A stretch of DNA of 64,000 bases from Tribonema minus (taxonomy: Eukaryota > Sar > Xanthophyceae > Tribonematales > Tribonemataceae), in contig JAFCMP010000013.1 of the NCBI GenBank assembly GCA_017506865.1, positions 1,364,001 through 1,428,000 on the forward strand, written 5' to 3'. Positions within the stretch are counted from its first letter, which is position 1. Each line of letters opens with the position of its first letter. Positions 1 to 17,053 of this stretch are shown here, piece after piece. The position numbers and the translations under genes were made by a program. The notes under the pieces are model-generated. The model made no database searches and was not told the origin of the DNA. It worked only from the letters and a program-made list of their open reading frames with translations.

Positions 1-89
1 ACACCGACTACACAGGTCTACTGAGACCTGTGCCAACCTGTGAGGTGTAACTGCCTGTAACTGTCTGAATACACCCCCAAGCCGTATCA
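1..89 (-). repeat. 3' LTR, U3-side 89 bp (truncated by window edge)
   Basis: Identical over 89 bp to 11644-11732. On the minus strand it begins TGATACGG directly after the purine tract at 90-109. It contains a perfect 8-bp stem with a 4-nt loop at 12-31 (ACAGGTCT, loop actg, AGACCTGT). The LTR continues leftward beyond the window, so its full length is unknown. Confidence 0.9.
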
Positions 90-109
90 GATCCCCCTTC
101 TTTGCTGAG
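90..109 (-). other. Polypurine tract for plus-strand priming
   Basis: On the minus strand this reads as the purine run AAAGAAGGGGGATC and ends exactly where the LTR starts with TG. The position and composition are those of a retroelement polypurine tract. A similar run, GCAAAGAAGGGGGAGAGGAG, occurs on the minus strand around 10590-10612 in the leader. Confidence 0.75.
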
Positions 110-331: not shown

Positions 332-1660
332 CTACTTCGCACTCTCCTCTGAGGATATACTGCGAGCGGCGAGCACGTTCCATGATGAGTATGGGCTGTC
401 TTTTGGCGTGCGGTAGTCACCCGGACGTAAGCGCATACGCCTGACAGTCTTCTCACCGTCGAATAGTACATCAAACGTGAACTGCGACCTGGCGGGGTAA
501 AACTCACCCAGGACGCCGCGGCTCCAGCCTGTTGGAAAGTGATACCAGATCACTTCACCCTCAAAGTCTGATCCGAAATCAGATGGCAGTTTGGGCAGCC
601 TTACCAGCGAGATCTGCGGCCGAGCAGAATCTTGGGCTGAGCTTGCCTCAGAAGTAGTTTGGGAAGATGGCAGACCTCGCGTGACCTGAGAGTTGGGACT
701 TGCACTACTCACGCTGTCCGGCGCGCTTTGCGCCTGCAACTTCTTGGCTTTGTCACGCACTGCCTCTGCCAACTGTATGGCAGACTTGACCTGTGTACGG
801 GTCATCTGTTCCCACTCACCATCCTCATATCTGATCCTCCAGTATGGTGACACAAAGTTCTTAACGGCCCCCCACACGTAAGTGATCGGGCCGCCCACTA
901 CCGTTCTGTGCTCCCTGACCAGCGCCGTGCCGATGGGATAGAGTTGCAGCGCGCTCTCTCGGCGCATGCCAGCATCCTCCTTAGGTGTGGGCCTGATGGC
1001 ATATGCCGGCAACCTTCCTTCGTTGCGCAGCTCATAGAGCGCGTGAAAAGCGTCTAAGGTCCATGGCGTCACTTCTTGCAGCATGTCATCCTCTGACACC
1101 CACGCATGTGACTTGCCATCTATGGACTGCCATTTGTACTGCCACGAGCCATTGAGGCCCGCTTGGCGGTCCAGAACTCTGTATAACTTCTCACCATCTG
1201 CTAGCTCCTCCACTTGTCGGGGGCTCAGCATGGCGTGCACACCTGGCTCCAACATGGCACTAGGCCTCATGTGGAAGGGCTTCATGTTCTCAACATGAGC
1301 TGTGGTGTGTCTAACTCTTCTGCCCATCATCCTGCAGATGAATGAGAGGCCTGATTCGCCTGTGCGAGCCTCGATCTGCCAAGGCCCCACATACCTGGCA
1401 TCAAGAGCAGCCGACCTGTCTCTTTGCCTGGGTAGCCGTATCATGACATAGTCACCGACGGCGAACTTCACCGCGCGCTTAATAGCTTCATTGCGCTTGG
1501 TGATCTTCTGGGCGCGCACTTGCAGCGCCTTTGACACCACTTTGTCTGCAAGCTCAAGCATATCTAACTTGTGCTCAATCTCTTCGTGTAGGTCCAATCC
1601 TGCTGCCATCCTCGTGCATAAATGCATCATGTGGCAGTGAAGCTTCCCGACCGTACACAC
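332..1660 (-). CDS. Integrase C-terminal extension with GPY/F, chromo-like and Tudor-like segments
   Basis: The ORF overlaps the 3' end of pol by 86 nt in the +1 frame and continues the integrase. The real join is probably at the pol UGA, so the first ~28 residues of this ORF are unlikely to be translated in this frame. Residues about 68-100 (VGDYVMIRLP ... YVGPWQIEARTG) match the GPY/F region after the retroviral-type integrase core. Residues about 157-193 (LYRVLDRQAG ... WQYKWQSIDG ... HAWVSEDDM) resemble a chromodomain. Residues 244-290 (YWRIRYEDGEWEQM) and 366-414 (FDVLFDGEKTVRRMRL) look like Tudor/Agenet-type barrels. Such modules bind histone marks in chromoviruses and could guide integration; that role is inferred. 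The frame ends at a TAG. Confidence 0.75.
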   Translation of the reverse strand: MCTVGKLHCHMMHLCTRMAAGLDLHEEIEHKLDMLELADKVVSKALQVRAQKITKRNEAIKRAVKFAVGDYVMIRLPRQRDRSAALDARYVGPWQIEARTGESGLSFICRMMGRRVRHTTAHVENMKPFHMRPSAMLEPGVHAMLSPRQVEELADGEKLYRVLDRQAGLNGSWQYKWQSIDGKSHAWVSEDDMLQEVTPWTLDAFHALYELRNEGRLPAYAIRPTPKEDAGMRRESALQLYPIGTALVREHRTVVGGPITYVWGAVKNFVSPYWRIRYEDGEWEQMTRTQVKSAIQLAEAVRDKAKKLQAQSAPDSVSSASPNSQVTRGLPSSQTTSEASSAQDSARPQISLVRLPKLPSDFGSDFEGEVIWYHFPTGWSRGVLGEFYPARSQFTFDVLFDGEKTVRRMRLRPGDYRTPKDSPYSSWNVLAARSISSEESAK

Positions 1661-4600
1661 AGAAAAAGGGTGTTAAACCTGTTTCACCTCTGGGCGTTGT
1701 CCTCAGCACGAACTGCACAAGCTCTAAGCCCTCGTGCCAGTTGGTCTGTTGAGCGCTGACCCAGGATGCTAGTGCCTTCTTGGCACGACCATTTGCGTGC
1801 TCCGCCACACCATTGGTCTGGGGGTGGTAGGCACTGGTTTCTATGCGTTTCACTTTGAACGCTTTGCAAAGGTCTGTGACCACATTGCCTAGGAAGACCT
1901 TGCCCTTGTCAGAGCACAGCTCCTCCACTAGCGCGCCAATCTCAAGGAACACTGTCATGAGGTGCGGGGTAACATCGCGCGTTCCCTGGCCGTGCATGGC
2001 CGAGAGCCACACGAAGCCGGACCTTGCTTCCACTATGGTCAGGACATATCTGTGCCCTGCCGTGGACTGTATACCAGGCTCTGTGATATCTATGTTGAGC
2101 CGCTGCCACATACGCACGGGCTCAGCTAACCACTGTCTGTACTGAGTGGAGCTGGCGCGTTTGCGCTCGAGGCATGTCATGCAGCTCTGCACGTACGTTC
2201 GTATGTCCGCGCCCATACCAGGCCAGAAATACCTCTCGAATATACGCGTGTGCGTAGCGCCTATGCCGCAATGCATAGCGCTTGCGTCATCATGCCCTAG
2301 ACGCATGACTAGGGTTCGTAGCACCACTGGCACGACCCACTGCAACAACACCATACCTCTTTTGGGGTGGCTCGTTGAACTGTGCACTAAGAGGCCATCT
2401 TCCTCGATGGTATACTGCTCTCTCTGTGCTAAGACGTGAGCGGCTAGCTCCGCGCCTTCGGGTATGTCACCCTCAATGAGCATCTTGCTCACTGCTTGAC
2501 AGAAACCGTCCGCTTTCTGAACTTCAAGAAATGCGGCTCTGCTGAGCATTGCTGGCGTGGCAGGCGAGTCTCCCTCGGCCACCCGTTTCAGCAACTGCAC
2601 TACTTCTGGCCTTGGCAGCGTCTTCTTGCGCTTGCCTAAAACAGCTTCGCCATCCGGTGGCTCGTCTGCCTCATCTGCATCAGCAGCAGCTTCTACCTCT
2701 GGAATCTCTCCTTCTTCCAATGAGTCTGCCGCCGGCTGAGCCGTGGTGACGCTGCACTTGGCCCTCTTTGAGCTGATGCTGCGTCGCCTGTCGCATGCGA
2801 TCTGCCTTAAGAGTCGCTGCGCTTGGGAATGCTCCCACGAGCCGGTGTACTTATTGACTGGCTCTGCGTACGCTGTGTTGATCTCAACTTCATCAACCTC
2901 AGCTTCCTCCACCGTGGAGTCATCTAGCCTTCTGTCCAACAACTGTGCCAGCTCCACAGCTGTCAGAGCGGCTAACCTAGCGGCCACCGCGCCTGATATG
3001 GCGACGGCCTCGTTGAACTTGAACGCTGGCCCGTAACGTGCGTCCGCCGTGTACCCACGACAGCTGTTCACGTCGGCCACTTTGTGCGTTCTCGTGGCCT
3101 CGTCCGCAAAGCGCACACCTGACGGCGGTGCGTCCATGCTCGGGACTGCGTCTGGCCACTGTTCGTCTGCTGGCTCCGTAGAGCGCTCAGCATCTAACTC
3201 TGCCTGCTGTGGCAGCCTGGATGGGGCATCAGCATTGGCATTCCTTTTGCCAGGCCTGTGCTGAATGGTAACGTCATACTCCTGTATGCGCATGGCCCAT
3301 CTTAGTAGCTTGCCGTTGTAGTCTTGTAACGTCAACAGCCACCTGAGCGCAGCGGCATCTGTGACCACTGTAACGGGGTTACCCCAAATGTAAGGCCTGA
3401 AGTGGTTGAGCGCCAGCACTACTGCCAGACACTCTACTGCCGTCGCTCCTAACTTCGCGTCGGGTTCAGAGTTCAGCTTGCTGAAGTAGCCAACGACTAC
3501 TTCTCTGACCTCCTCGCCTTCAGCTATGCGGCGCCTGCCCGTGTGAGCATATGGCTGTCCCGCTGTTGCCCTTTCGACCTCACTCACAGGTCTGAACTGT
3601 GTAAGCACACCTGCCGTCGCCGTCTTGGAGGCGTCGGTGTACAATACGAAAGGCAAACTGAAATCTGGGTGCATCACTATGCGACTGTCGCACATGGCAC
3701 TCTTCAGCCGCTTGAAAGCCCGCTCTTGCGCAGACCCCCAAACCATGACTGCTTTGTTCTTGGTCAGGGCTACTATACTAGTAGGCTCTGATATCGCCCC
3801 AAAGTCGGGTACATATCGCCTGTAATAGTTAAACACTCCCATAACCACTTGTACCAACTGCTTGTCGGGTACCCCGCCTTTCAGTGGGGGGCTCATGTCA
3901 AGCATGGCCTTGACCTTGTCAGGGTCTGGTCTTGTTCCAGCGGCGCCAACTATATGGCCTAGGAACTTGACTTCAGCTTGAAATAGCTGACACTTTGGGC
4001 GAGATACACTCATGCCCGCCGCCCCTATGCGGCCAAGAACATCATCTAACTGCTCGATGTGCTCCTCGATGTCCGTGCCATACACCAACACGTCATCTAT
4101 GTACACTAGCGCGTGGGAGCCTAAGGCATATCCCAGCACTTGGTGCATCAATCTCGTGAACTGCGCTGGCAAGTTCACTAGCCCGAATGGCGCCACCTTG
4201 TAGTGCCACAACGAGCCGTCTGGGGCTCTGAAGGCCGTCTTGGCCTTAGCCGTCTTGGCCAGCGGGATCTGATGGTAACCCGCTGCCAGATCTAACGAAG
4301 ATAAAATCCTCGCACCTTGCACAGCCCGCATCATGTCATCCATGTTGCCTAAGCCATGACTATCACGCTTCGTGACCGCATTCAACTTCCTGAAGTCTAT
4401 GCAGAAGCGGATCTTGTCGCCTTGAACCACTAGTACTGGGTTGCTTGCCCACGCACTAGCTGATGGCTCAATCTGATGGCGCTTTGCCATCATCTGAATC
4501 TGTTTCATGATGTACTCGGCTTCTTTGAAAGCCCAATGGCGTGCCTTGTCCGCCACCGGCTCGGCCGTCTGAGTGTCAACATCAATCTCAAAATGCTGAG

Positions 4601-7490
4601 TGACTCGAGGGTTTTTAGGGTCCTTAGCAAAGACATTCCTGTGCTTTTTTAGCATGTCAAGTGCTTTTGTTTTTAAAAGTACCCCATCTTTCCCCCTTCC
4701 TTGCAAATGAGGCGCAAGCCTGCCATCTTCCACAAGGATTTCCTCCAGCTCTGCATCCGTGCAGTTTTCTAGCTGGTCATTGTGGCGCTGGCTAAGGTCT
4801 GCCAGCCGTTGCACTTCTTGTGCAACCTCTTTGGCAGTCTTGCCTATGCTAGCAGCTAATTCTGCCACTAACTTAGCATTTTCAGAGTGCCTTTTGGCCG
4901 CTATTACTAGCAGTTTGGCTTCTAGAGCCTGCTGAGTAGCTGTCTGCACTTCTAGCAGATCATCAGCCTTAATTGGAGTCACTTTTCCCCAATACGTGTT
5001 GCGGCGCACGTAAATCGGGTACATTGAAGTGTTGCTCAATGTAGCGTATATCGTGCCGCTGGCATTTACAGTGAGAGCGGTGATATTTGCCTTAACACCT
5101 TTGCCTCTCATCATTTCTGTAGTTACTGTTTCTTGTGGCATGAGCAATGCCTCATAGGGCTGCACGCGCTTTGGCTTTGGTAGCAGCGTGAGTTCCACAA
5201 TCGTCTCCGACGATGGTGCCAGTACAGTGTTATATGCCATCCTAGCTGAGCACTGCTGAGGCTTGTCTGGTGCCTCAGTGCTCTCAGCGCTGCCATTGCC
5301 CTTGCAACTGGCTAGTGCTGCCGCATGCGCGTTCGCGTTGTCTGCGCGATTCTTGTCGTGCATGGGGCGTATGGCCACACCTTTTAGTCCCCCTGGGAAG
5401 AAGGCTGGGCTACCGCCGTGATACGAGATGACTGAGCCATGCGGGGCAAAGAAATCCGTACCTAAGAGTACGTCCATGGGTGCGTTTACCACATAGAACT
5501 TGTGCAAGAACATCTTGTTCTTAAACCGCAGCCATGCATTGACCACACCACTGATCTGCAGCGACGTCTTGCCGTCTGCCAAGAGGATCTCAGTGTAGTC
5601 ACCTTGCTGAGGTGTACATACATAGCTGTTGGGGAGCTTGTCTGCAATGCGCTTGCCCATGATGGTTACGGTTGCACCGCAGTCTACCATGGCGCGCACA
5701 TAGAGTTCTTTGGGCGTCTGAGAGTTGCTTTGTACGCGTAACGACGCGGACACAAACATCTGCCCTGGAGGTACAACACCGGCTACTGGGCGTATGTACT
5801 CCACTGGAGCCTCCGACTTGGAGCGCTCTACCGAGCTAGGCTCAGGGGACCCTACTGCAAGGCCTACATGAGGTAACTTGACTGGTTCCCTCTGTTTTGT
5901 GATCTCTTCTGTGAGATTCTTAATTGTCTCTGCCACACTCACTGGTGGGGCTGTGTCTAACTTGCTGACACCTGGCACATGGTCTAATATGCCTAGAGAC
6001 TGAGCATCAAGGCCAGCGCGCCTGAGCGCTGCCTTCAACTCACCTGGGGCAAGGCGCGGGTCTGTACCGCCGCCGAGCTTCTTGCGTGCCGCTGCGGCCG
6101 CAATGGGTGGAGCACTGATTTCTGTGTCAATGTCCATGTCGTCTGCGCTACTGCAAACGCTCATAACTGACTGTGAGTCCCACTCAGAGTCAGACCCTGA
6201 GTCAGAGTCATCGACTTCCACGATGTCAGCCATGCCGGGCTGCACCACAGCCAAGTCTACCTCTGGCTCTTCCCATGCACTGCGCATCGGAATTATGGGT
6301 ACCTCTGCATACCCTGCATCATGCGCCTTTGCATGTATGCTACGCGCCTCTGCTGCTGAGCAGTGTGCACTTGACGTGGGCGCTGCGTGTACCGCGGTAG
6401 CGGCCTGCACCAGCGAACCACTCTGACCAGCCAACCAAGATGGGGGCGGGCAGTCAACTGAATGCCTCAACGTAGAGTCTGACCTACGCGGCAAACGTAC
6501 CTGTTGTTCTGGCAGTGTGCACAGGCCTGAGGCCTCAATTGCCACGAACAAGTGAAATGCCATCTCTGGGATGAACAAGTCTGCAATGTAACGCCGTACA
6601 TCACTACTGCATGTACTCGCTGGTAATTCATGATAATACGTCATGAGCACCGCCATTTCCGCAAGCGACAGCAAGCGGGCAGATGCCACTGGGCCAGCGT
6701 CCTTTGCATGTGCAACATAACTCGCAGTGGGCCTACCAGGCAGTCTGCGCACTGGGCTAGGCAACAAGCCATCAGCATCCAAAACACCAGGGTGCTGAGC
6801 ACTGCGTGGTTGCAAGAAGAATGTGCGTTCGGGGCAGCGCAAGCGAGAGCGAACAGATGTGGGTCTGCTGTGTAAACGCTTGGTATTCATTACCGCACCG
6901 AACCTCTGGAGCGCCTCACGTGAGGCCACCCCTGCTGGTACTATGACAATGTACACCCTCTGCCTCCTGCAAGGTACTTCAAACTCAGAAGCCTTTAACT
7001 TGGCAATGTACAGCATGTAACCAGCCGACTTGAGAATGCGTACTGCGCGTGCAAATGCGCGTGACACTAGCACTCCTGGCACATTCTCATACAACACCAC
7101 CCGAAGCTTGGCCCGCACGATGAGCCGTGCGGCATGGACCGTGCACTCGGCAGCTTCGCCCTCGACCTTCTTGCCCTCTGCCGAAAAATCTGTGCAGGGC
7201 GGGGAGATGGTGGTGATGTCAGGTTTCTCGTCAAGAAGACGTGCAACAACCTTCGCATCAGTCATGCATGCAGTCATTGTGGGCACTTCTGGATGAACTT
7301 CATGCAGAGCCTCAATTGCCTTGACATTCTTGTCAACTGCAAGCACTGTGCGTGTTACAAAACCTGCTCTAGAGGTCAACTTACCCCCAGCTATGGCGCC
7401 TCCTAGCGCCCCACAGCAGATAGACGCGTGTTTGATAACTCTGGGTGGTGGCTCTGGCCCACCCTCAATTGCCGCCATCTGTGCGCGCAA
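1575..7490 (-). CDS. Pol polyprotein: C5-cytosine DNA methyltransferase, protease, RT, RNase H, integrase
   Basis: 1971 codons; numbering starts at a TTG at 7490, and the first ATG is codon 5 (7478). Residues 20-320 form a C5-methyltransferase: motif I (ASICCGALGG, 22-31), motif II (VDKN), motif IV with catalytic Cys99 (SPPCTDFS), motif VI (YENVPG), motif VIII (CRRQRVYIVIV) and motif IX/X-like sequence at 272-318. An acidic linker (426-440) follows. The protease site is D603-C-G-A and also has LLGTDFF. RT has SLDLAAGYHQI and YIDD at 1130-1133. RNase H has D1286, E1353, D1378 and D1421. Integrase has a zinc site H1733, H1740, C1770, C1773 and a DD35E triad D1801, D1861, E1897. The frame ends GAU-UGA; the integrase tail lies in the +1 frame. 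Expression is probably by +1 frameshifting from gag (CAC-UGA-C) or by reinitiation. Confidence 0.93.
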   Translation of the reverse strand: MRAQMAAIEGGPEPPPRVIKHASICCGALGGAIAGGKLTSRAGFVTRTVLAVDKNVKAIEALHEVHPEVPTMTACMTDAKVVARLLDEKPDITTISPPCTDFSAEGKKVEGEAAECTVHAARLIVRAKLRVVLYENVPGVLVSRAFARAVRILKSAGYMLYIAKLKASEFEVPCRRQRVYIVIVPAGVASREALQRFGAVMNTKRLHSRPTSVRSRLRCPERTFFLQPRSAQHPGVLDADGLLPSPVRRLPGRPTASYVAHAKDAGPVASARLLSLAEMAVLMTYYHELPASTCSSDVRRYIADLFIPEMAFHLFVAIEASGLCTLPEQQVRLPRRSDSTLRHSVDCPPPSWLAGQSGSLVQAATAVHAAPTSSAHCSAAEARSIHAKAHDAGYAEVPIIPMRSAWEEPEVDLAVVQPGMADIVEVDDSDSGSDSEWDSQSVMSVCSSADDMDIDTEISAPPIAAAAARKKLGGGTDPRLAPGELKAALRRAGLDAQSLGILDHVPGVSKLDTAPPVSVAETIKNLTEEITKQREPVKLPHVGLAVGSPEPSSVERSKSEAPVEYIRPVAGVVPPGQMFVSASLRVQSNSQTPKELYVRAMVDCGATVTIMGKRIADKLPNSYVCTPQQGDYTEILLADGKTSLQISGVVNAWLRFKNKMFLHKFYVVNAPMDVLLGTDFFAPHGSVISYHGGSPAFFPGGLKGVAIRPMHDKNRADNANAHAAALASCKGNGSAESTEAPDKPQQCSARMAYNTVLAPSSETIVELTLLPKPKRVQPYEALLMPQETVTTEMMRGKGVKANITALTVNASGTIYATLSNTSMYPIYVRRNTYWGKVTPIKADDLLEVQTATQQALEAKLLVIAAKRHSENAKLVAELAASIGKTAKEVAQEVQRLADLSQRHNDQLENCTDAELEEILVEDGRLAPHLQGRGKDGVLLKTKALDMLKKHRNVFAKDPKNPRVTQHFEIDVDTQTAEPVADKARHWAFKEAEYIMKQIQMMAKRHQIEPSASAWASNPVLVVQGDKIRFCIDFRKLNAVTKRDSHGLGNMDDMMRAVQGARILSSLDLAAGYHQIPLAKTAKAKTAFRAPDGSLWHYKVAPFGLVNLPAQFTRLMHQVLGYALGSHALVYIDDVLVYGTDIEEHIEQLDDVLGRIGAAGMSVSRPKCQLFQAEVKFLGHIVGAAGTRPDPDKVKAMLDMSPPLKGGVPDKQLVQVVMGVFNYYRRYVPDFGAISEPTSIVALTKNKAVMVWGSAQERAFKRLKSAMCDSRIVMHPDFSLPFVLYTDASKTATAGVLTQFRPVSEVERATAGQPYAHTGRRRIAEGEEVREVVVGYFSKLNSEPDAKLGATAVECLAVVLALNHFRPYIWGNPVTVVTDAAALRWLLTLQDYNGKLLRWAMRIQEYDVTIQHRPGKRNANADAPSRLPQQAELDAERSTEPADEQWPDAVPSMDAPPSGVRFADEATRTHKVADVNSCRGYTADARYGPAFKFNEAVAISGAVAARLAALTAVELAQLLDRRLDDSTVEEAEVDEVEINTAYAEPVNKYTGSWEHSQAQRLLRQIACDRRRSISSKRAKCSVTTAQPAADSLEEGEIPEVEAAADADEADEPPDGEAVLGKRKKTLPRPEVVQLLKRVAEGDSPATPAMLSRAAFLEVQKADGFCQAVSKMLIEGDIPEGAELAAHVLAQREQYTIEEDGLLVHSSTSHPKRGMVLLQWVVPVVLRTLVMRLGHDDASAMHCGIGATHTRIFERYFWPGMGADIRTYVQSCMTCLERKRASSTQYRQWLAEPVRMWQRLNIDITEPGIQSTAGHRYVLTIVEARSGFVWLSAMHGQGTRDVTPHLMTVFLEIGALVEELCSDKGKVFLGNVVTDLCKAFKVKRIETSAYHPQTNGVAEHANGRAKKALASWVSAQQTNWHEGLELVQFVLRTTPRGETGLTPFFCVYGREASLPHDAFMHEDGSRIGPTRRD

Positions 7491-7504
7491 AGAGACATCG
7501 TAAA

Positions 7505-7528
7505 CAGCGTCAGTGCTCAGCTACCTGT
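7505..7528 (-). other. Putative +1 frameshift site at gag-pol junction
   Basis: Gag ends ...GAG CAC UGA C. Skipping the U gives GAC GCU GUU UAC and enters the pol frame, which is open from just after a TAG at about 7525-7527. The arrangement (slow UGA stop, +1 continuation) resembles antizyme and bacterial prfB frameshift sites. No test of function is possible from sequence. Confidence 0.45.
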
Positions 7529-9093
7529 GCCGAACATGCATCTGCTCTAACTACACCAGGCAATTCACTGATTGCTGATGCTGAACTTGCAGCAGGCAAG
7601 TCACTTCCTACCAAGGCAGCAGACAACTGCAAGTGTGATTCACCTTGGCGGTGCTTTTCTGCCATCCTCTTTCGGTGAGCAATGCACTGAGGGCAGGTAG
7701 TCTTGTGCCGCATAAGTGTGTCCCAGTCTCCCTGGTTCACTCTGCAGCCAAGACACTTGAAGTTGCTCTGGGGCTTGGCTCCGCCGCCGCCATTATCGCC
7801 TGCGGAGCTAGCCTTGCCCTGCGGCGCGCGGTCGCTGACTCCAAGCTGGCGACGCTCGTTAGCGCTCAGCCCCGCCAACACAGCGCGAACAGCCGAAAGC
7901 TTATTCTTCTTTTTATAGCGATGGTCGTTACTGACCACGCTCCACCCATCCTTGGCAGGGCGCTTGCCTGTGTCAGAGTAGGGGGGGGTTGAGATGTGTG
8001 CCGCGGCCATTGCAGACACAACATTTCGAGTCTCGCGCTCGTCAATAGGCGCTGCCTGCCACTTTTGCTGGGCAGTTGCCACGACCTTGGGAAAAGCGGT
8101 GTTCTTTAGATCCCAGGTCTCATACATGCCGTTTACTTCTTGACGGCAGCATAATGGCAGTTCATGAACGAACTTCATACGAACAATTTGCTGGTTGTCC
8201 GCGCAGCCGGCGTCGTGCGCGGCTGCAACTACCTCCCTGCCCCACACTTCGGGGCTGGTACCGGAGGTACGCGTGAGTTCATGATACTTTTGAAGTGCTA
8301 TTTGCCTGGCAGATGTGCTATCGTACGCTGCCGTAAGGCATTGCACCATCTGCTCATAAGACAAATCACTAAACGCACGAGTTTCTAGCATTCCCGTGCG
8401 CTCATTGGTGACTGCGCTGGTCAGATCAGCGTACTGACTCTTGGTCAGACTCTGCAACAGCGCTTCTGAGTAGGCCGACTTGGGCACGCCACGCGTGTCG
8501 CAGCTACGCTCAAAAGCTCTAATGGAAGCTTCAAGCCTGCCTACTTGCGTTACAATGACGACGCCAGTGCCGCCGAAACCCCTCAAGTCAACTTTGGGTT
8601 TCCGCGCCGTCATGGCAACTGAGGAGTACGAGGGTTCTACTGCCCCCGCAGTCCTAAGGCTCTCACCTAGAGCCGATGCGCTGGTGGCTACGCCGGCCAC
8701 TGCGCCATCTTCACGCGGACTCGCAGCTGCGCCGGCTGCGTCGTCGTCCGACGTGTCGGAGTGCCCGTCAGTGTTGAGGAACGGGTGCGTCACCAAGCTG
8801 CGCGGGTAAGTGTCCGCAGCTAGGCGCGCCTCCTCGGTGACCAGAGGCGTGTTCTCGAACTCCCTTAGCATGCGCCAGAGTTCCGCCTCCTCACCGTCGC
8901 CTGTGCCGAAGGCGAAGCGATGCCAACTATTGGACCGCTTACGGTGTTTACCTATGGTCAGCAGCTCGCCGAACTGGCTAGCTTTGAAGTCATGACCACG
9001 TTTTTCCAGAAGTGCAACATTATGCTTGCGCACCTCTTCGGCCTGCTCCGCAGCGAACGTCCGCGCCATCGGCAGCAGTGAGTTCTTCACCAT
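7510..9093 (-). CDS. Gag (capsid/nucleocapsid) protein
   Basis: 527 codons from ATG 9093. Residues about 185-345 have the helical pattern of retrotransposon Gag capsids (LSYEQMVQCLTAAYDSTSA, then FVHELPLCCRQEV). Residues 385-415 are Lys/Arg-rich. A Cys/His cluster, C447-x2-C450, H463, C467-x2-C470, sits where a nucleocapsid zinc knuckle is expected but is not a CCHC knuckle. The frame upstream of this ATG is open for 52 more codons back to a single TGA at 9250-9252, so ORF1 and gag are in the same frame. The 3' end (CAC TGA C) overlaps the pol frame; skipping the U of UGA continues directly into pol. Capsid assignment rests on position and helix pattern, not on a strong motif. Confidence 0.75.
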   Translation of the reverse strand: MVKNSLLPMARTFAAEQAEEVRKHNVALLEKRGHDFKASQFGELLTIGKHRKRSNSWHRFAFGTGDGEEAELWRMLREFENTPLVTEEARLAADTYPRSLVTHPFLNTDGHSDTSDDDAAGAAASPREDGAVAGVATSASALGESLRTAGAVEPSYSSVAMTARKPKVDLRGFGGTGVVIVTQVGRLEASIRAFERSCDTRGVPKSAYSEALLQSLTKSQYADLTSAVTNERTGMLETRAFSDLSYEQMVQCLTAAYDSTSARQIALQKYHELTRTSGTSPEVWGREVVAAAHDAGCADNQQIVRMKFVHELPLCCRQEVNGMYETWDLKNTAFPKVVATAQQKWQAAPIDERETRNVVSAMAAAHISTPPYSDTGKRPAKDGWSVVSNDHRYKKKNKLSAVRAVLAGLSANERRQLGVSDRAPQGKASSAGDNGGGGAKPQSNFKCLGCRVNQGDWDTLMRHKTTCPQCIAHRKRMAEKHRQGESHLQLSAALVGSDLPAASSASAISELPGVVRADACSAQVAEH

Positions 9094-9249
9094 GTTCTTG
9101 CTCTCACTGGGAGCTCTGGTGACGCGAAGCTGGAGCTCGCCAAGGCGTTCGTAAAGGGCACGCTCGTGAATTTCGGCGAACGTTGCAGCCGTTTTGGCGG
9201 CCTTGGCAGCTCGCTTATGTGCCTCGACGCGAGCTTCGATGCCCTCACG

Positions 9250-9252
9250 TCA
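9250..9252 (-). other. In-frame UGA between ORF1 and gag
   Basis: Codon context CAG-UGA-CGU. The reading frame is open on both sides: 360 codons before it and 52 open codons plus the 527-codon gag after it. This is the only interruption in about 940 codons. It is either a readthrough site or a point nonsense mutation. The downstream base is C, as in several readthrough contexts, but the rest of a strong readthrough context is not present. Confidence 0.6.
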
Positions 9253-10332
9253 CTGGTCATAAGCCTCATCTGTGCCCTCAGGATCAAAGGGCACACCACC
9301 CTCATCACCAGATGACTCAGAAGACTCGAGCAGTTGCCTAACTGCCCTCCGTCGCTCTGCCGCTTGTTGCTCAACTGGCTTTCGCGGTATGACGGGCGCG
9401 CTACGTGGCACAACTGGCGAACTTTGCACGACTGGCACGCTACGTGGCACAACTGGCACACGCCGCGCCTTACCACTTGCACCCCGACGCGGCTGCGTCA
9501 CAGGCGATTTATCTGAGGCTTCAGGGGCCCTCGCTGGTGCAGTATAGTATGTGGGAGCCACTAGCCTAGCTGATGGCTTGGAGCTCTGAGGCGTCGGAGC
9601 CGCCGGTGCTACTTCAGGCGCCGCAACTGGGACCCGTGCACCGCGCGTAACCGACGTCTTGGCCGGCTGACTGCGCGCGACCTTAGGTGGGGCCACCGCG
9701 GGCGCAACCAGTGCTGCAACTGGCACTGTGGACTTTGCAGGTGCTGGCGCCGCAGACTTCGCGGGCGCTGCCGGCACAGCTGGCGCGGCTACCGGCACAA
9801 CTGGCGCGGTTGTTGCAGCTGCACGCGGTGTCTTGCGTGGGCTTTTCGTTGGTGCGAGTTTTTTCTCAACAGCTGCACGTGCAAAAGCTTCTTCGCCTTC
9901 TGCTACCTGGGCTTCGCTAAGCATAATGCCCATTGCTGCAAGCTGTTCTCTTTTCTGCCTCAAACGTAACTGCCTTGCCACTATGGCTTCGGCTTCTGAG
10001 CCGCCACCGCCGGGCTCGTCGCTGGACTCAGCGAAATTACGTATAAAAGGAGGTGCGGCACCAGTGACTACTGATTCTGTGGACCGTACCGAGGCAGACG
10101 TGTCGGGCGCGCTGGCACCGACCTGGCTGGGTTGTGCGGACGCTGCCGCGGGCCGGGGAGGGGGGCGTGACGGCTTGTCACCCGAGCTTGGTGCGGGGCG
10201 CGTAGCGGAGCGCTGACCGCCCTTGTTGCTCTTAGCAGCAGTGCTGCCAGCAGGCCTAGCACCGCCACTAACACCTCCGCTGCGGCTTGACCCACTCGTT
10301 GGCTTCTTGGAGCCATGGTCAGTCTTGACCAT
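9250..10332 (-). CDS. ORF1: Pro/Ala/Ser-rich N-terminal part of the gag region
   Basis: 360 codons from ATG 10332. It is low-complexity, basic and rich in Pro, Ala, Ser and Val, with short internal repeats of the VPVVPRS/SPVVPRSAP type near residues 290-315 and an acidic end (ESSESSGDEGG). It stops at TGA 9250-9252, and the same frame is then open through to the gag ORF. It may therefore be the N-terminal domain of a longer Gag made by UGA readthrough, or a gag broken by one nonsense change. I recognise no domain; disorder and nucleic-acid binding are plausible but unproven. Confidence 0.6.
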   Translation of the reverse strand: MVKTDHGSKKPTSGSSRSGGVSGGARPAGSTAAKSNKGGQRSATRPAPSSGDKPSRPPPRPAAASAQPSQVGASAPDTSASVRSTESVVTGAAPPFIRNFAESSDEPGGGGSEAEAIVARQLRLRQKREQLAAMGIMLSEAQVAEGEEAFARAAVEKKLAPTKSPRKTPRAAATTAPVVPVAAPAVPAAPAKSAAPAPAKSTVPVAALVAPAVAPPKVARSQPAKTSVTRGARVPVAAPEVAPAAPTPQSSKPSARLVAPTYYTAPARAPEASDKSPVTQPRRGASGKARRVPVVPRSVPVVQSSPVVPRSAPVIPRKPVEQQAAERRRAVRQLLESSESSGDEGGVPFDPEGTDEAYDQ

Positions 10333-11643
10333 TTATGGTGTATCCTGCACACGATTCACGCGCATGAAGCTGAGTGCGACGACAAAACCATGATTTTAAA
10401 TTGTCAGCGCACGAGCCGTCTATGCCCCGCACGCCTCTGCACGAGGTCTGATGCTACTAGGGCACTCTGAACTGCAAGCCAGCCAGTTTGACATAGCAGT
10501 TGTACAGATCGACCGCGTTGTCAATTCTGCAACACAATTGCGGCCGTACAATCATGAAGCAAAATTGCATCGCTTTGCTCTTAAGCTAGACTCCTCTCCC
10601 CCTTCTTTGCAAAAAGCTAGTCATATCAGCTTTAGAGCAAATTACTAAGGAAGAGCATGCGGTAGGGTTTTTATTCTAGTCATAGGCAACCGTTACAGCC
10701 AGAAAAGTGGCAGCGCATGCCCCTTTGTGCGTTTATTCTCGAGACTTCTCGAGTGCAACCACTTAACACTGTCTATGACAAGTCACTACCGTTTCTGTGA
10801 CTTCTGATACACAAGCTATCACGTGTCCCCCCTAAAGGATCTCCGCGCGTTCTCCCGGGAGACTCTGGTGCGTTCGTGACGTGATAGTGTACGGCGCGCA
10901 AGCTGGTGTACACAGCGCGCTACCGCACGGGTCTACCCTCGATGCCCTATATGGGTCCACGTGACCACGTTCATCAACCACAGATGAGCCGCAGAATAAG
11001 GCCAGCTAAATGAAGTTGCATGTTCATTGCTGCTCAGACCCGTGCAGCACGCACTGCGTCGTTGACATCAAGGGGGCGGGTCACGACGTAGCGGTGCACC
11101 ACTACGCCGCCCCGTCATAAGCATTCTAGTGCAGGAACCTAGCGTGATTAACGTTTAACTCGCTTCCCACGGCTGTTCTTTACGTATCGCTTTACGTAAT
11201 CTGGGTCCTCGAAAGGCTTTGACACGATTCGAGCAGTGATACATTGAACAGCGATCACCACGCTGCTGCCCTTGCGGGCGGGGTTAGCACGAGGTAAGGA
11301 CTGTCTTCGGGAGCCAAATTGAAGCGGCTTACCTTGTGATGCTGTCATGAATGCAAACAAGCAAGCTGGAAGAGCAAAACAAGTAGACACGCTTCAGAGA
11401 ACTCAAATGAAATGTTATGCGAAAGGAAACGCGATGCGCTTACCGGATATCTTATTCTGTTGCTGAGAGACGGAAGGCTTGGGGCTGGACGATGGCTGGC
11501 ACAGCAAGGTTCGGGCTTGCTGCTTGCAGGGGGGGTTCTGATGCTGTGCATGCTACTTTGATGTGCCCTTTGGCATGTGACCCAACTAGTTGCACCTGCC
11601 TTCAACTAAGGTCAGGCCAGCTCTCAATCACATGTCAAGGTCT
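10333..11643 (-). other. Retrotransposon 5' leader and unresolved remainder of right LTR
   Basis: This 1.3-kb stretch lies between the shared LTR segment and ORF1. On the minus strand it holds two AATAAA-type signals near 10670-10740, a polypurine run near 10590-10612 like the one beside the left LTR, and a donor-like CAAG/GTAAGC near 11330. A 66-codon basic ORF begins at ATG 11348 (MTASQGKPLQFG) and ends RGKRVKR at 11148. Where the LTR ends and where the primer binding site lies could not be decided. Confidence 0.4.
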
Positions 11644-11732
11644 ACACCGACTACACAGGTCTACTGAGACCTGTGCCAACCTGTGAGGTGTAACTGCCTG
11701 TAACTGTCTGAATACACCCCCAAGCCGTATCA
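11644..11732 (-). repeat. 5' LTR, U3-side 89 bp
   Basis: Perfect copy of positions 1-89, including the 8-bp hairpin (here at 11655-11674). On the minus strand the LTR starts TGATACGG at 11732, which fixes the outer right border of the element. The host flank begins CTTCC at 11733. Confidence 0.9.
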
Positions 11733-13115
11733 CTTCCTATACGCGACCAAGGTGCATGCTGCACAAATTGCAAGCGACCTGCTGGCGTGCCAAGCACTCA
11801 CTCTTTGCTGGTCCACTTCATGTTGTGACTGAGCTTGATGCGCCACCATAAGTGTAGCACGTAATGGCTTTTGCTGTTCGCGGAACCTTCACATCATGAC
11901 CATCACCGATGCAGTCACTTCGACACACCCGGACGTACATAATGCTGCTGGCAACTGTGGCCATGACCATTGCGCTCAGCTGCTTTGTAAAGCAAAGTAA
12001 TAGTTCACAAGTACTACGCCATACACAAACAGTAATGGCGCATGTAGTCTGAGAGGCGTCATTCTAAGTCACGGCAAGAGCGCCAGGCACTACTTGGCAG
12101 GCATGTAGACTTGCTGTGCGCATGACATGATTCGCATTTCGCAGTGATCTCTGCATGGCAACAACCCCCCGCTGGTGCAATGGGGCTGCAACAATCAGTC
12201 TGCTGACAGCACTCTAAGAGCACGGCGCGAGCGCAATCCAAAAAGATGAATGTGCTGATGGTGCTTCCACATCAGACGCTCGATCACGCGTGCACAAATG
12301 CTGCATGCATGGTCTCTTACCTGCTGTCCAATACCATACAGCTTTTGACGCTGCATGCGCAAAGTAGCACCTGCACATGCAAGCCGTACGCACCCGTATG
12401 CGCAACACCAACGACTCTGGCGCAGTATGCTCACAAGCGGTGCACAACAACTACATGCGCTGAACACGCAGGGTGACATCGCATATTGCACCGTTGTGCA
12501 AGCCAGTGCATGCATGCCGTACGCGCACAACTACTGACTCTGGTGCAGTGTAGAAGTACACAAAGCAATGCACAACGTCTACCGCGCGGGGAACACGCAA
12601 GGCGGGTGCAACTAGCGAGTGCGCTGGTCAACTCGAACATACACATCAATGCATGCGCAGCAAGCACTGCAGCCGTAGCAAGCGGGCAGAGCAGCGCAAG
12701 TAGAGGCCGACACCCGTGCGCGCGCGCGTTGCATGCAGAAATAAAAACAACAGTCAGAGTCGCCATTCCTCATTTTCCGCGGGGCACAGCAATCTCTCTC
12801 TTGCTCTCTCTCTCTCTCGGCGCACATGATAATCACACAGCAATGACATATACCACCCGATGCGCACGCGGGCGCAGGATCGCGCTCGCCGCGGCCGGGC
12901 CGCGTACGCGCCAACAACGCCTACGCACGCAAGCACAAATATACGTACCCTCTTGCCTCAGCCGCAGGCCGTGGCGGACGGCCGCTACCCCTCCTTACAT
13001 GCCCCGCCCCCCCCCCAATGGCGGCGGGTCCCTGGCCGGGGGGGGGGCGGGGGGGGGGAGGAGGGGGGGGGGCAGCTGTGCGGTTGAAGCGCTGACGCGG
13101 CGCGCGCGCGGGGGC
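11733..13115. other. Intergenic DNA between retrotransposon and EGF-like gene
   Basis: No gene supported. The region has a diverged tandem duplication (about 12378-12430 and 12505-12550, sharing GCCGTACGC and GACTCTGG), a CT dinucleotide tract at about 12792-12820, and long G/C homopolymer runs at about 13005-13073 just beyond the stop of the minus-strand EGF-like gene. The plus-strand open frame here has alternating low-complexity composition and is read as chance. Confidence 0.5.
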
Positions 13116-14402
13116 TCATACGAGCGCCGTCTGCTCGCCGCAGGCCAGGCCGACGAAGCCGTCGAAGCACTGGCACTCCCCCGAGGTGTAGTCGCACTTG
13201 CCGCGCCCGCCGCAGGTGTACGCAGTGTTGACGTGCGTGGCAGTGCTACTGAGATACTTGGTGTCAATGACTCTGGCGTAGCCGTAGCTGCCAGTGGTGC
13301 GGGCATTTGTGAGCGCGAGCGCACTCTCCTGTATGCCTGCGAGTCGGGGCGTGCAGCCCTCGAGGCACTCCTTCCACTCCACCTCGAGCAGGTTCTGCTT
13401 CCCCTGGACGTTCTTGCCGCTGAACTTGACATAGATGCCAACACCAGCATTAAGATCGGTGACGGTAGGAGCGAGAGGAGAGCCGCTGAGAGTCCAGTAA
13501 GTATTGGCATTCCAAGTCGGCATGCCAAGAGTGGCGACTACGTCCACTGTGTCGATGACGCCGCCGGGCAGCGCCTCTAAGGCTGTCTTGACGTCAGTTG
13601 CGAGAGTGGTCGCGGCAGCGCCCAAGTCAATGGTGATGGGGCCAGTCGTGAGCCGCTCGCCGGTCAGAGTGGTGAAGGTGAGCGCAAACTCCGCATCACT
13701 TACACCGTCCGCTGCCAGAAAGTTTGCAGTGGCTGAGCCGGGGTCGGCGATGAGCAAAATACTTTGCACTTGATCGCCATTGGTGTCCATGACGTCGTCG
13801 CCCTTTGGGCAGCTGCGCTTGCCGCAGTCGACTCCTTCCCACTCCGCATCGCAGACGCAGAGCCGGGTCCTCTCGTTGTCCCAGTTGTAGTAGGTGAAGG
13901 TCTCCGCGTCGTTGCCGTTGCTGTCGCCAAGGAAGGTGTCCAACAGTTGGGTTGCAGAGCCTACGTTGACGCCGTATGGTACGTCGTTGGCGAATAAGCA
14001 ACGGCCGTGCCCGGAGCAGTCGTTGCCGTCCTTGTCCATCGGGCAGGACATACGCCCGCAGGCCTTGCCCTCGTACCCCGCGAAGCAGTTGCACTCGCCG
14101 CTGGTGCGGTCGCAGATGCCCTTGTTGGCGCACTCTGCGTACTGATGGTGCTCGCCTCCGCTGCCTGGCGCATCTGCCCAAGCAATCTCGTAGGGGCACG
14201 TCCGCTCCGCGCAGTCTCCTGCCTCGCCTGCCATCTCACCACTTTGCCAGTTAGGATAGCAGTAGCACGCGGCTGACGCCCCTGCGCTGCAGCTGCCGTG
14301 GCCCGAGCAGGCATTAGGACAGCACCCTCCCGCTGCAAGCACTACGGTGTTGATTCCCAAGATGGCCGCGGCCAGTGCAACCGCTGCTGCCCTCCTCGAC
14401 AT
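13116..14402 (-). CDS. Secreted EGF-like repeat protein A
   Basis: 428 residues, one exon, ending in TGA. A signal peptide is evident: basic MSRR then a hydrophobic stretch up to LAAGG. Cys-rich EGF-like modules follow: CCPNACSGHGSC, the CAERTCPYEIAWAD motif, CANKGICDRTSGECNCFAGYEG, CSGHGRC, and CVCDAEWEGVDCGKRSCPKGDD. A cysteine-poor, Thr/Ala-rich middle (about residues 210-370) is probably beta-structured. A final EGF-like module (CGGRGKCDYTSGECQCFDG) ends LACGEQTALV. Proteins with this CSGHG plus CPxGxAWxD architecture are common in stramenopile algae; their roles are mostly unknown, presumably cell surface or extracellular. It is a paralog of the divergent gene at 14786-17053. Confidence 0.88.
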   Translation of the reverse strand: MSRRAAAVALAAAILGINTVVLAAGGCCPNACSGHGSCSAGASAACYCYPNWQSGEMAGEAGDCAERTCPYEIAWADAPGSGGEHHQYAECANKGICDRTSGECNCFAGYEGKACGRMSCPMDKDGNDCSGHGRCLFANDVPYGVNVGSATQLLDTFLGDSNGNDAETFTYYNWDNERTRLCVCDAEWEGVDCGKRSCPKGDDVMDTNGDQVQSILLIADPGSATANFLAADGVSDAEFALTFTTLTGERLTTGPITIDLGAAATTLATDVKTALEALPGGVIDTVDVVATLGMPTWNANTYWTLSGSPLAPTVTDLNAGVGIYVKFSGKNVQGKQNLLEVEWKECLEGCTPRLAGIQESALALTNARTTGSYGYARVIDTKYLSSTATHVNTAYTCGGRGKCDYTSGECQCFDGFVGLACGEQTALV

Positions 14403-14735
14403 TGCTGTTGTGAATTGCTGTGTATGCCAACTCGCTCTATGTACGTGTAGCTAGCTACCCAGCAGCAACAAGCAGCACCTGCCTCGCCCGCCTTGCTCAG
14501 TTGCCCCTGTCTACTGCGCCTTGCTGCTCTGTTCGTGCAAACGGTGCTTTGGTGTAGGCTGTCTCTGTGTGTCTGAGCCGTTATCTTGCAAATCGGTTTG
14601 GCAGTTTTTTCACCCGCCGGCCGTTACCGCTGTTTTGAGAGCCGTTGCACTCGAGTGAACACACAGAGCAGTAGGCAAGCAGGCTGCTGGTAGTTGGCGA
14701 GCAGGCGAGGGTGATAGTGAGTAGTTGGTGGTGGA

Positions 14736-14780
<45 letters not shown>

Positions 14781-14785
14781 CAACC
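14403..14785. promoter_or_regulatory. Shared divergent promoter of the two EGF-like genes
   Basis: 383 bp separate the two ATGs, so both genes must be driven from here. The right end, in the 5' leader of the plus-strand gene, contains an AGC/CAG trinucleotide run at about 14741-14779 immediately before GCAACC-ATG-ATG. No clear TATA element was identified. Confidence 0.6.
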
Positions 14786-17053
14786 ATGATGACCCGGCGA
14801 AAGTCTTTAGTGTTCAAAGCTCTGGCAGTGTTGGCGGTGCTAGCAACGGTGGCAGCGGAGTGCCCCAATGCTTGCTCAGGGCACGGCACCTGCAACACTC
14901 ATGACGAGTGTGATTGCTACACGGGCTACATGGCCAACGATTGCTCTCAGCGCATCTGCCCGTTCGGCAACGCACATGTAGATGGCGGCAAGGGCGACCT
15001 AGACGGCGACAACGTCTTCGACGGCACAACCTTAGTGATCAAAACCTCGCAGATGTACCCCGCGGGCACGGTCGAGGGCATAGCAGCGGTCGACTACGAC
15101 GCGGCACATTTTTACATGGAGTGCTCAAACAAAGGGCTGTGCGACCGCAGCTCGGGCACTTGCAAGTGCTTCCCAGCATACGAGGGGCATGCCTGCCAGC
15201 GGGCCTCTTGCCCGGTGGTGGGGGGGAAGGCTTGCGGGGGGCACGGCGTCTGCAGGACGGTGCGGGAGCTGGTCGAGGACGACTACAGCAACGACTACGA
15301 GCTTTGGGACGCGGATGTGGGCATGGGCTGTGCCTGCGACGCCGGCTACTCCGGCTACGACTGCTCCCAGCGGCACTGCCCCATCGGCGTCGACCCCCTC
15401 TACGCGGACGAGCCAGAGATTAACCCACGCTACCCCATGTGGAACTTCCGCTTCTCCGGCGGAAGCCCTTTTGACCACACATCTGGCAGCTTCCGCGTCA
15501 AGTTCTACGACGCCTACGGAGAGGACTGGGTCACTTCGCCCATCACATTTGGAGATGACCCTGTTCTCACTGGAACGGCGTTGGCGACCGCGCTCCAAGC
15601 GCTCAGCAATGATGTAACCGATTCCCACACCACCTGCGACGGTTCATATCCCAGCAACGATGCGCTGTTCAAGTGCTCCTTCAAGCACAACTTCGGCTCC
15701 CACAGGGTTCCAGAGCTCATCACCATGGACGACGACGGCCACTCCACGGTCGCCACAGGCATCACCACGTACGTGTACGACACGGGCATCATAGGCGGGT
15801 CCGCGGACCAGTTCGGCCAGCTCTGCGACGGCGTCACCGCTACGGTGATTCCGGCTGTGTCGCAAATCACCCTCACACTCACCAACGCTGCCGCCGGCAG
15901 CTTCACCCTCACTCTCGGCCAGACGACGGTCACCATCGAAGCGGCTGATACTACTGCGACTGTGGACACAAAACTGACGACCGCTAGTGTGGGTCATGGG
16001 ACCACGGGCGGCTCAGCTGGCGCTTGGATCATCCCATTGACCCCCAGCTTGGGAGTACTACCGACCTACGACATCAGCGGCGTGACCGCCACGGCCAACA
16101 CCGTCGCAACGATGGCCATGACCCTCGCGTACAAGACGAGCGTGCTGGAGACCGACGCCAGCCTGTACCTCCACGCCGGCAGCGCGGCGCAGACGGTGCT
16201 GCTGCAGAAGTGCCTCGGCGACGCGGACGGCAACCCCGACAACGACGTCGACGCGCAGCTCTGGGACTACGGCACCAACATGGCCGGCAGCGACCCCGCC
16301 GACATTGCGCTCGCGCACCCGCACCTCATCAAGCTCATCAGCCGGGGCGTCCCAACCAACCCGTACACGACCGCCATCCTCTACTGGGACAACACGCTGA
16401 AGGTCTTCAAGGTGCTCACGGCCGTCGGCGCGGCCGACGGCACGCTGTACGACTGGACGGCCGCTGCCTTGACCACCGCGCCGCCCACGTTCTACGTCGG
16501 CGCCACGAACGGCGTCGTGACGCGCGTGTTCAAGGACGCCGCGTCGTGGGACAGCACCAACCACCTCTGGACGTACGCGGCCACCACCAACGCCGCGGTC
16601 TCCATCGCCACGGCAGCTCAGTACACCAGCGTCGTGACGACGTCCGTCGACGCGAGCTGCGCCGCGGACGCGCTCGCGGACAACCACTACAGCCTGCTCC
16701 CCACCCTCGACGACCACGCGTGCCTCAGCAAGGGCGACCTCGTCATCGTGCCCGCCGCGCAAGCCGCGACCGCCGCCCTCACCACCCCCGCCGCCGTCGC
16801 CAACACCGCGGAGCTGCGGCGCGTCGTCAAGGTGGACGGCACGCGCGTCACGCTCGACCGGCCGATCCACTTCGCCGCCGCGGGGAGCACTTACCTCTTC
16901 AAGTTCACGCCGGACCCGCAGGGCGACTTCGTGTACAACTACGCCGTCGAGTGCGCGGGGCGCGGCCTCTGCGACGCGACCGCGGGCCTGTGCCAGTGCT
17001 TCCGCGGCTACACGGGGCCGGCGTGCGACATCCAGAGCGCGCTCGTCGTATAG
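14786..17053 (+). CDS. Secreted EGF-like repeat protein B
   Basis: 755 residues from ATG 14786 to TAG. I chose this start over the upstream in-frame ATG at 14711 because that one would add a poly-Ser run encoded by the CAG repeat in front of the signal peptide (MMTRRKS followed by a hydrophobic stretch to VAA). EGF-like modules: CPNACSGHGTCNTHDECDCYTG, CSQRICPFGNAHVD, CSNKGLCDRSSGTCKCFP, CGGHGVC, CACDAGYSGYDCSQRHCPIG. A 500-residue cysteine-poor, Thr/Ala/Asp-rich middle follows, then a terminal module (CAGRGLCDATAGLCQCFRG) ending IQSALVV. This mirrors protein A, whose end is EQTALV. Likely extracellular or wall-associated; function unknown. Confidence 0.88.
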   Translation: MMTRRKSLVFKALAVLAVLATVAAECPNACSGHGTCNTHDECDCYTGYMANDCSQRICPFGNAHVDGGKGDLDGDNVFDGTTLVIKTSQMYPAGTVEGIAAVDYDAAHFYMECSNKGLCDRSSGTCKCFPAYEGHACQRASCPVVGGKACGGHGVCRTVRELVEDDYSNDYELWDADVGMGCACDAGYSGYDCSQRHCPIGVDPLYADEPEINPRYPMWNFRFSGGSPFDHTSGSFRVKFYDAYGEDWVTSPITFGDDPVLTGTALATALQALSNDVTDSHTTCDGSYPSNDALFKCSFKHNFGSHRVPELITMDDDGHSTVATGITTYVYDTGIIGGSADQFGQLCDGVTATVIPAVSQITLTLTNAAAGSFTLTLGQTTVTIEAADTTATVDTKLTTASVGHGTTGGSAGAWIIPLTPSLGVLPTYDISGVTATANTVATMAMTLAYKTSVLETDASLYLHAGSAAQTVLLQKCLGDADGNPDNDVDAQLWDYGTNMAGSDPADIALAHPHLIKLISRGVPTNPYTTAILYWDNTLKVFKVLTAVGAADGTLYDWTAAALTTAPPTFYVGATNGVVTRVFKDAASWDSTNHLWTYAATTNAAVSIATAAQYTSVVTTSVDASCAADALADNHYSLLPTLDDHACLSKGDLVIVPAAQAATAALTTPAAVANTAELRRVVKVDGTRVTLDRPIHFAAAGSTYLFKFTPDPQGDFVYNYAVECAGRGLCDATAGLCQCFRGYTGPACDIQSALVV

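Follow-up and report, generated by a model that had tools for sequence, protein, structure and literature searches.

Cytosine-5 DNA methyltransferases (DNMTs) carried by retrotransposons have been described in Symbiodinium and Klebsormidium (PMC5890265), two precedents which the first-pass annotation of the locus studied here had correctly named. In Klebsormidium nitens, the element KnitGypsy-Dnmt3 carries a DNMT inside the Pol of a long terminal repeat (LTR) retrotransposon of the Gypsy type (de Mendoza et al. 2018, PMC5890265); another paper (PMC12344493) assigns the streptophyte and dinoflagellate cases to Copia and DIRS, whereas the original says Gypsy for Klebsormidium. Here we describe a Ty3/Gypsy element with a DNMT domain in its Gag-Pol polyprotein, found on the minus strand of a 64,000-nucleotide stretch of the Tribonema minus genome (the window; contig JAFCMP010000013.1, positions 1,364,001 to 1,428,000), and its relatives in the same genome. 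Light-harvesting proteins encoded there mark the host as a photosynthetic alga, and its 18S resembles that of a stramenopile; of the FISH probes compared with two partial 18S loci, none fitted perfectly, the non-chlorophyte probe coming closest with one mismatch.

The window element resembles KnitGypsy-Dnmt3 in having a DNMT in a Gypsy Pol and in the purifying selection acting on it (Ka/Ks < 0.2 in KnitGypsy-Dnmt3, PMC5890265). It differs in that the DNMT of KnitGypsy-Dnmt3 is a DNMT3 and its repeats are DIRS-like (PMC5890265), whereas the LTRs of the window element are ordinary, our profile searches of solved structures retrieved no DNMT3 chain, and the DNMT occupies three polyprotein positions in the present genome. 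As with SymbioDIRS-Dnmt3 and SymbioLINE-Dnmt, many retrotransposon DNMTs are present in one algal genome, and the variable DNMT position recalls the two differing domain orders of SymbioDIRS (PMC5890265). The Symbiodinium elements are, however, DIRS and LINE elements, whereas the present ones are of the Gypsy type with an rve integrase and, in one group (group II below), a chromodomain. Two other cases are more distant. DIRS elements with a Dam-like methylase (cited in PMC5890265) are also retrotransposons bearing a DNA methylase, but that enzyme is a structurally unrelated N6-adenine enzyme, and a tyrosine recombinase takes the place of the rve integrase. Ty3/Gypsy elements of orchids likewise gained a nucleic acid-modifying domain, an N6-methyladenosine (m6A) RNA demethylase (PMC9289625); this case differs in that the domain is an eraser of an RNA mark, has an extra reading frame to itself, and belongs to plants.

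No report of a Gypsy element with a cytosine methyltransferase other than DNMT3 was found in an open-access library, which lacks most subscription papers and preprints, and term look-ups for methyltransferase in the accessible text of PMC6875170 and PMC5348765 found none. A Gypsy element with a DNMT in Pol (Klebsormidium, DNMT3) and the many retrotransposon DNMTs of Symbiodinium are thus already known. New, within the literature searched, are a Gypsy DNMT which is not recognizably a DNMT3 and is nearest to phage enzymes, the occurrence of the domain at three places in the polyprotein within a single genome, and a multiplied subfamily lacking the catalytic loop.

The fusion of a cytosine-5 methyltransferase to a Ty3/Gypsy Pol, read from motifs in the first-pass annotation, is confirmed by a significant match to PF00145 (7.7e-17, with a score of 62.1 bits where the cut-off is 22). 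The motif IV cysteine, the ENV of motif VI, and the RxR of motif VIII are all present, and the predicted fold match covers residues 25-342, the stretch 219-314 being of low confidence. A chance motif match was rejected on the basis of the PF00145 hit and the fold comparison. In a motif table of 18 rows representing 16 lineages, the motif IV cysteine is found in 17 rows and EN and RxR in all 18; these residues persist while DNMT identity to the window domain falls to 18-50% across families.

The genome containing the window (158 Mb, 554 contigs) holds at least 117 DNMT domain matches, of which 33 are near full-length at ≥93% identity, 32 of them without a stop. Among 50 reverse transcriptase (RT) matches of ≥90% identity, 42 are preceded on the same strand by a DNMT match, which the other 8 lack in the list used; the spacing of RT and DNMT matches is 1938-1948 bp in 34 of 44 cases. 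Misassembly as the source of the DNMT-pol join, a possibility raised at the outset, is excluded by these 42 close copies. Among 150 listed RNaseH matches, the 49 with open frames of ≥2000 amino acids (aa) were checked, and all 49 have a same-strand DNMT match within 2.6 kb (upstream in 46, downstream in 3). This filter favors DNMT-bearing elements because a Gypsy Pol without a DNMT would be shorter, and the 49 of 49 therefore do not establish a DNMT in every Gypsy element. Five loci, each with a large open frame, were chosen for their RT or RNaseH although no DNMT match was listed for them (L120, L121, L130, L131, and L132, the last picked as probably related to L128). A DNMT-like domain is present in each of the five, recognized by PF00145 in four and by a BLAST match only in L121. 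The single element of the first-pass annotation is thus real, but the genome in fact holds many DNMT-bearing families.

The DNMTs found in Gypsy-type elements of this genome fall into 16 lineages, no two of which exceed 68% identity once L026 (87% to L023) and L132 (98% to L128) are set aside. PF00145 and Gypsy domains lie together in long frames of L049, L050, L051, L052, L053, L054, L120, L130, L131, and L132, and are spread over more than one frame in L122 and L128. Three positions of the DNMT in the polyprotein were found, namely between Gag and protease (PR), between PR and RT, and between RNaseH and integrase (IN). Group I consists of the window family, L049, L050, L052, L054, L120, and L122, with RTs 59-71% identical to that of the window; the DNMT precedes the protease in the six families with an aligned protease. 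In group II (L051, L053), the protease precedes the DNMT and a chromodomain lies near the end; L016 and L027 were assigned to this group by their DNMT, and RNaseH matches lie downstream of both (C550:119441, C212:56916). The DNMT of group III (L121, L130, L131) lies well upstream of RT, and a protease-like stretch before it was seen by eye in L121 only. Group IV (L128, G000:C509; L132, G000:C224) has the order RT-RNaseH-DNMT-integrase and the motif IV GSNC; L132 shows this in a single open frame, with RNaseH at 706-822, DNMT at 879-1041, H2C2 at 1460-1519, and rve at 1536-1633. L023 and L026 represent another DNMT, a relative of which (L025) has an RNaseH match downstream (C212:359879).

In the window family, the usual order is Gag-DNMT-PR-RT-RNaseH-integrase. 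In 15 of the 16 other copies examined (from 18 fetched, L035 and L036 being left out), a single frame runs through the Gag tail and the DNMT, and in the sixteenth, L039, the frame difference lies further upstream. DNMT-bearing open frames reach 3376 aa in other copies. The window copy itself has three lesions: an in-frame Gag stop at 9250-9252, a loss of frame from Gag to DNMT, and an end of the Pol frame at 1575-1577, past which a different frame continues to 332. The description of a Pol that begins with the DNMT, given in the first-pass annotation, is therefore an artifact of this broken copy.

The ancestry of the domain was assessed with a careful tree of 37 rows and a quick tree of 44 rows, built without DNMT1, DNMT3, DNMT5, or published retrotransposon DNMT rows. 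Dropped from the careful tree were L013 (short), vL073 and vL083 (long branches), and vL056, vL059, vL060, and vL078 (thinning of viral rows); L130, L131, and L132 are absent from all trees. In the careful tree, 16 retrotransposon rows, including the environmental protein P0004, form one clade (91/81, not starred), which is sister to two phage/viral rows (96/92) in a sample with few bacterial and viral rows and several long branches. The quick tree agrees, with supports of 88 and 93. Placing the retrotransposon rows with four bacterial-like proteins (P0006-P0009) to the exclusion of the phages, a group named post hoc, was rejected (approximately unbiased test, p-AU 0.0035). Group I as a single clade is weak in the careful tree (68/41; 96 in the quick tree). 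Profiles of groups I and II match each other with a probability of 99.8 over 306 columns, and PHROG 116 and 363, phage cytosine-5 methyltransferases, match all six of the group I domains and all four of the group II domains compared. These phage enzymes, the nearest sampled relatives by tree and strong profile matches, differ in having no retrotransposon fusion and are about 27-29% identical to the window domain.

Against solved structures, the profiles of both groups retrieved DNMT2, HhaI, HaeIII, DNMT1, and related chains (52 hits per list). Neither list, taken to E ≤ 10 in a search without a DNMT3 positive control, contains a DNMT3 chain, and none was among the 50 rows of the fold comparison. 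Membership in DNMT3 is not supported by these searches but may still hold. DNMT3 has been described as absent from most stramenopiles except diatoms (PMC9998398). The DNMT is apparently of phage-like ancestry, its nearest sampled relatives being phage enzymes. The independent capture suggested in the first-pass annotation is favored, though short of proof, by the lack of a retrieved DNMT3, the type carried by the published DIRS and Gypsy cases, and by the position of the clade beside phage-type enzymes.

The arrangements may have arisen from a single capture with relocation or from DNMT transfer between elements. An RT tree, which contains RTs of this genome only and has a very long L128 branch, places group III with group II (82/84), whereas the DNMT tree places it with groups I and IV (97/91). 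The disagreement does not reach significance on either side: the grouping II+III has a p-AU of 0.095 in the DNMT tree, and I+III has one of 0.279 in the RT tree.

Outside this genome, no Pol-length protein with a DNMT was found at E ≤ 0.001 among the 7980 candidates scored. Shorter queries found P0002-P0005, from environmental contigs. One of these, P0004 (654 aa, on a 43.5-kb environmental contig), matches the window Pol from the DNMT through the linker with 51% identity over 497 residues; judged by this sequence match, the DNMT-linker arrangement exists in another assembly. Viral contig scans with P0001 and with the group I profile found no relative, the scan with the group II profile found 61 loci (20 used in the quick tree), and tblastn against phage records found 6 records (one used).

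The genome also contains free-standing DNMT-like genes, L010, L011, and L012 (G000:C223, C181; 367-390 aa; Pfam matches for L010 and L011), in which a GNSVVP stretch resembling motif X soon follows motif VIII, which would fit a rearranged C-terminal half. L010 and L011 fall away from the retrotransposon clade. L013 (G000:C523) is a DNMT-like fragment with SPPCQPYTRIG, probably a host-gene exon, which we take from its motif to be DNMT2-like.

The DNMT of the window family is under purifying selection. Among 14 copies, the mean ratio of nonsynonymous to synonymous divergence (dN/dS) is 0.20 (91 pairs). Comparison with L039 gives 0.18, and comparison with four members of a sister subfamily, which are about 86-88% identical, gives 0.14-0.16; between L049 and L050 the ratio is 0.19, near saturation. 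A comparison of regions in 14 copies (one swapped) gave 0.20 for Gag, 0.19 for the DNMT, and 0.32 for the linker. Mean dS is 0.23 in Gag and 0.05 in the DNMT of the same copies (L002-L039), an approximately fivefold excess possibly due to recombination or to one odd copy (L039).

The window element is a full-length Ty3/Gypsy LTR retrotransposon of 12,056 bp (window -323 to 11732), the features of which are listed in Table 1. Its repeats are one pair of ordinary direct LTRs with TG...CA termini, and a DIRS-like arrangement of repeats was not seen. The LTRs are 100% identical and thus indicate a recent insertion; the window element is a young copy. The domain order PR-RT-RNaseH-integrase with a DDE (rve) integrase is that of Ty3/Gypsy. 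The rve and protease matches score below Pfam cut-offs, but both domains can be aligned to their integrase and protease counterparts in group I relatives. The LTR at 11320-11732 has a CpG observed/expected (o/e) ratio of 0.455, low against the element body and the rest of the window (0.82 and 0.95). Two divergent open frames adjoin the retrotransposon (13116-14450, minus strand; 14675-17053, plus strand); by eye they are rich in EGF-like cysteine repeats, and they likely encode secreted proteins.

Table 1. Features of the DNMT-bearing Ty3/Gypsy element, in window coordinates.
Feature	Position	Strand	Evidence
3' LTR	1..89, extends 324 bases past left window edge to -323	-	identity to 11320-11732 over 413 bp
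Purine-rich tract preceding 3' LTR, AAAGAAGGGGGATC	90..103	-	sequence
446-aa open frame overlapping Pol frame end, past integrase core	332..1672	-	no own Pfam match
Pol open frame of window copy, 1981 aa, DNMT-PR-RT-RNaseH-IN	1578..7520	-	open frame and Pfam
Integrase: H2C2 zinc domain (residues 1730-1788), rve core (1806-1900)	1821..2333	-	PF17921 1.2e-16; PF00665 2.6e-6, below cut-off
RNase H, residues 1286-1415	3276..3665	-	PF17917 3.4e-22
Reverse transcriptase, residues 1035-1191	3948..4418	-	PF00078 4e-26
Aspartyl protease-like domain, residues 608-691	5448..5699	-	PF13975 1.3e-4, below cut-off; alignment with five further families of group I
Cytosine-5 DNA methyltransferase domain, residues 26-345	6486..7445	-	PF00145 7.7e-17
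Codon of predicted catalytic Cys109, motif IV SPPC	7194..7196	-	invariant in six-row group I alignment; motif table
Gag second part, 579 aa, out of frame with DNMT in window copy	7510..9249	-	open frame
Gag first part, 360 aa, closed by in-frame stop at 9250-9252	9250..10332	-	open frame
5' LTR, 413 bp, 100% identical to 3' LTR	11320..11732	-	LTR comparison
Target-site duplication, 4 bp, GAAG on element strand	11733..11736	.	sequence

On balance, we lean toward reading the element as a recent Ty3/Gypsy retrotransposon whose Gag-Pol includes a phage-like DNMT that would be packaged with RT and methylate the element's own complementary DNA (cDNA), which we consider the likeliest role of the domain. 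The DNMT would be made as part of the polyprotein, enter the virus-like particle together with RT, and methylate the double-stranded cDNA before or at integration; the methyl mark would then influence the host's DNA surveillance or silencing response to the new copy. We infer packaging and cDNA methylation by analogy with SymbioDIRS-Dnmt3, the domains of which methylate CG in yeast and for which the authors proposed cDNA methylation (PMC5890265). Several observations weigh against this reading. Of the enzymes assayed in that work, those of DIRS alone gave activity, the results for SymbioLINE and KnitGypsy being inconclusive (PMC5890265). Motif X reads IADLFIP in the window, as opposed to LANAVPP in group II, and group I departs from GNAVP; several families have a changed motif IV (STRC, GSNC, TSSC, TAPC, STPC). 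The decayed copy L127 (two stops) has a dN/dS of 0.54, and the near-identical pair L123 and L124 has 1.0 on very few changes. The CpG o/e of the element is only mildly low against the rest of the window, and there is thus no strong CG-methylation footprint; CpG depletion as such a footprint was set aside as weak. L121 (G000:C292:5500-14500) is devoid of the motif IV loop, catalytic cysteine included, while its relatives L130 and L131 retain the cysteine as STRC. The loop-less junction occurs at 27 exact and 2 near places (one or two mismatches; 29 in total), as against zero matches in the genome for a reversed-sequence control, and four of these places lie in frames of 3452-3455 aa (C33, C214, C292, C511). 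A subfamily without the nucleophile has therefore multiplied, which makes catalysis in cis dispensable there. Together with the altered motif IV, it argues most strongly against assigning every element a simple catalytic role, although such elements may be helped in trans.

The multiplication of the loop-less subfamily is also what speaks for a mainly non-catalytic role of the DNMT (DNA or S-adenosylmethionine binding, capsid or polyprotein architecture) or for a supply in trans by intact copies. We regard this explanation as unlikely, since the cysteine, EN, and RxR are retained almost throughout the motif table and the domain is under purifying selection in the window family. The DNMT might instead act on RNA, such as genomic RNA or primer tRNA in the particle. 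The tRNA enzyme DNMT2 is the top profile match among solved structures for both groups (7.9e-13, 3.9e-14), a further point against a DNA target, and RNA methylation was suggested for SymbioLINE by de Mendoza et al. (PMC5890265). However, M.HhaI, M.HaeIII, and DNMT1 match too, a prophage methyltransferase and M.HhaI rank above DNMT2 by fold, and the careful tree, from which the short DNMT2-like L013 was left out, sets the domain beside phage enzymes, so that an RNA target is somewhat more doubtful still. A role of the enzyme on host chromatin, with other transposons, host genes, or invading DNA viruses as targets and either the host or the element as beneficiary, would suit the large copy number and the anti-viral use suggested for transposon methylases (PMC6338049), but the fusion inside Gag-Pol points to the particle, and we consider it improbable. 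A neutral passenger or an assembly artifact might be read from the frame breaks of the window copy and from the RT matches without an upstream DNMT in the lists used; this is already contradicted by the dN/dS of 0.14-0.2, the DNMT upstream of most close RT copies, and the conservation across families, and we give it almost no credence.

Cytosine methylation is a main route of transposon silencing in eukaryotes, yet here the transposons carry the writer of the mark, and published cases of retrotransposon DNMTs are few and mostly DNMT3. The many large-frame Gypsy elements with a phage-like DNMT at several positions suggest that retaining the enzyme pays. We give about even chances to a history in which a phage-type DNMT entered these elements once, anciently, became a near-standard part of the polyprotein, moved among at least three positions, and diverged into at least 16 lineages, after which one subfamily lost catalysis and yet multiplied. 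If so, this genome would be a natural experiment on the purpose of a retrotransposon DNMT. With cysteine-bearing and loop-less subfamilies side by side, experiments could ask if selection acts on methylation itself or on some other property of the domain.

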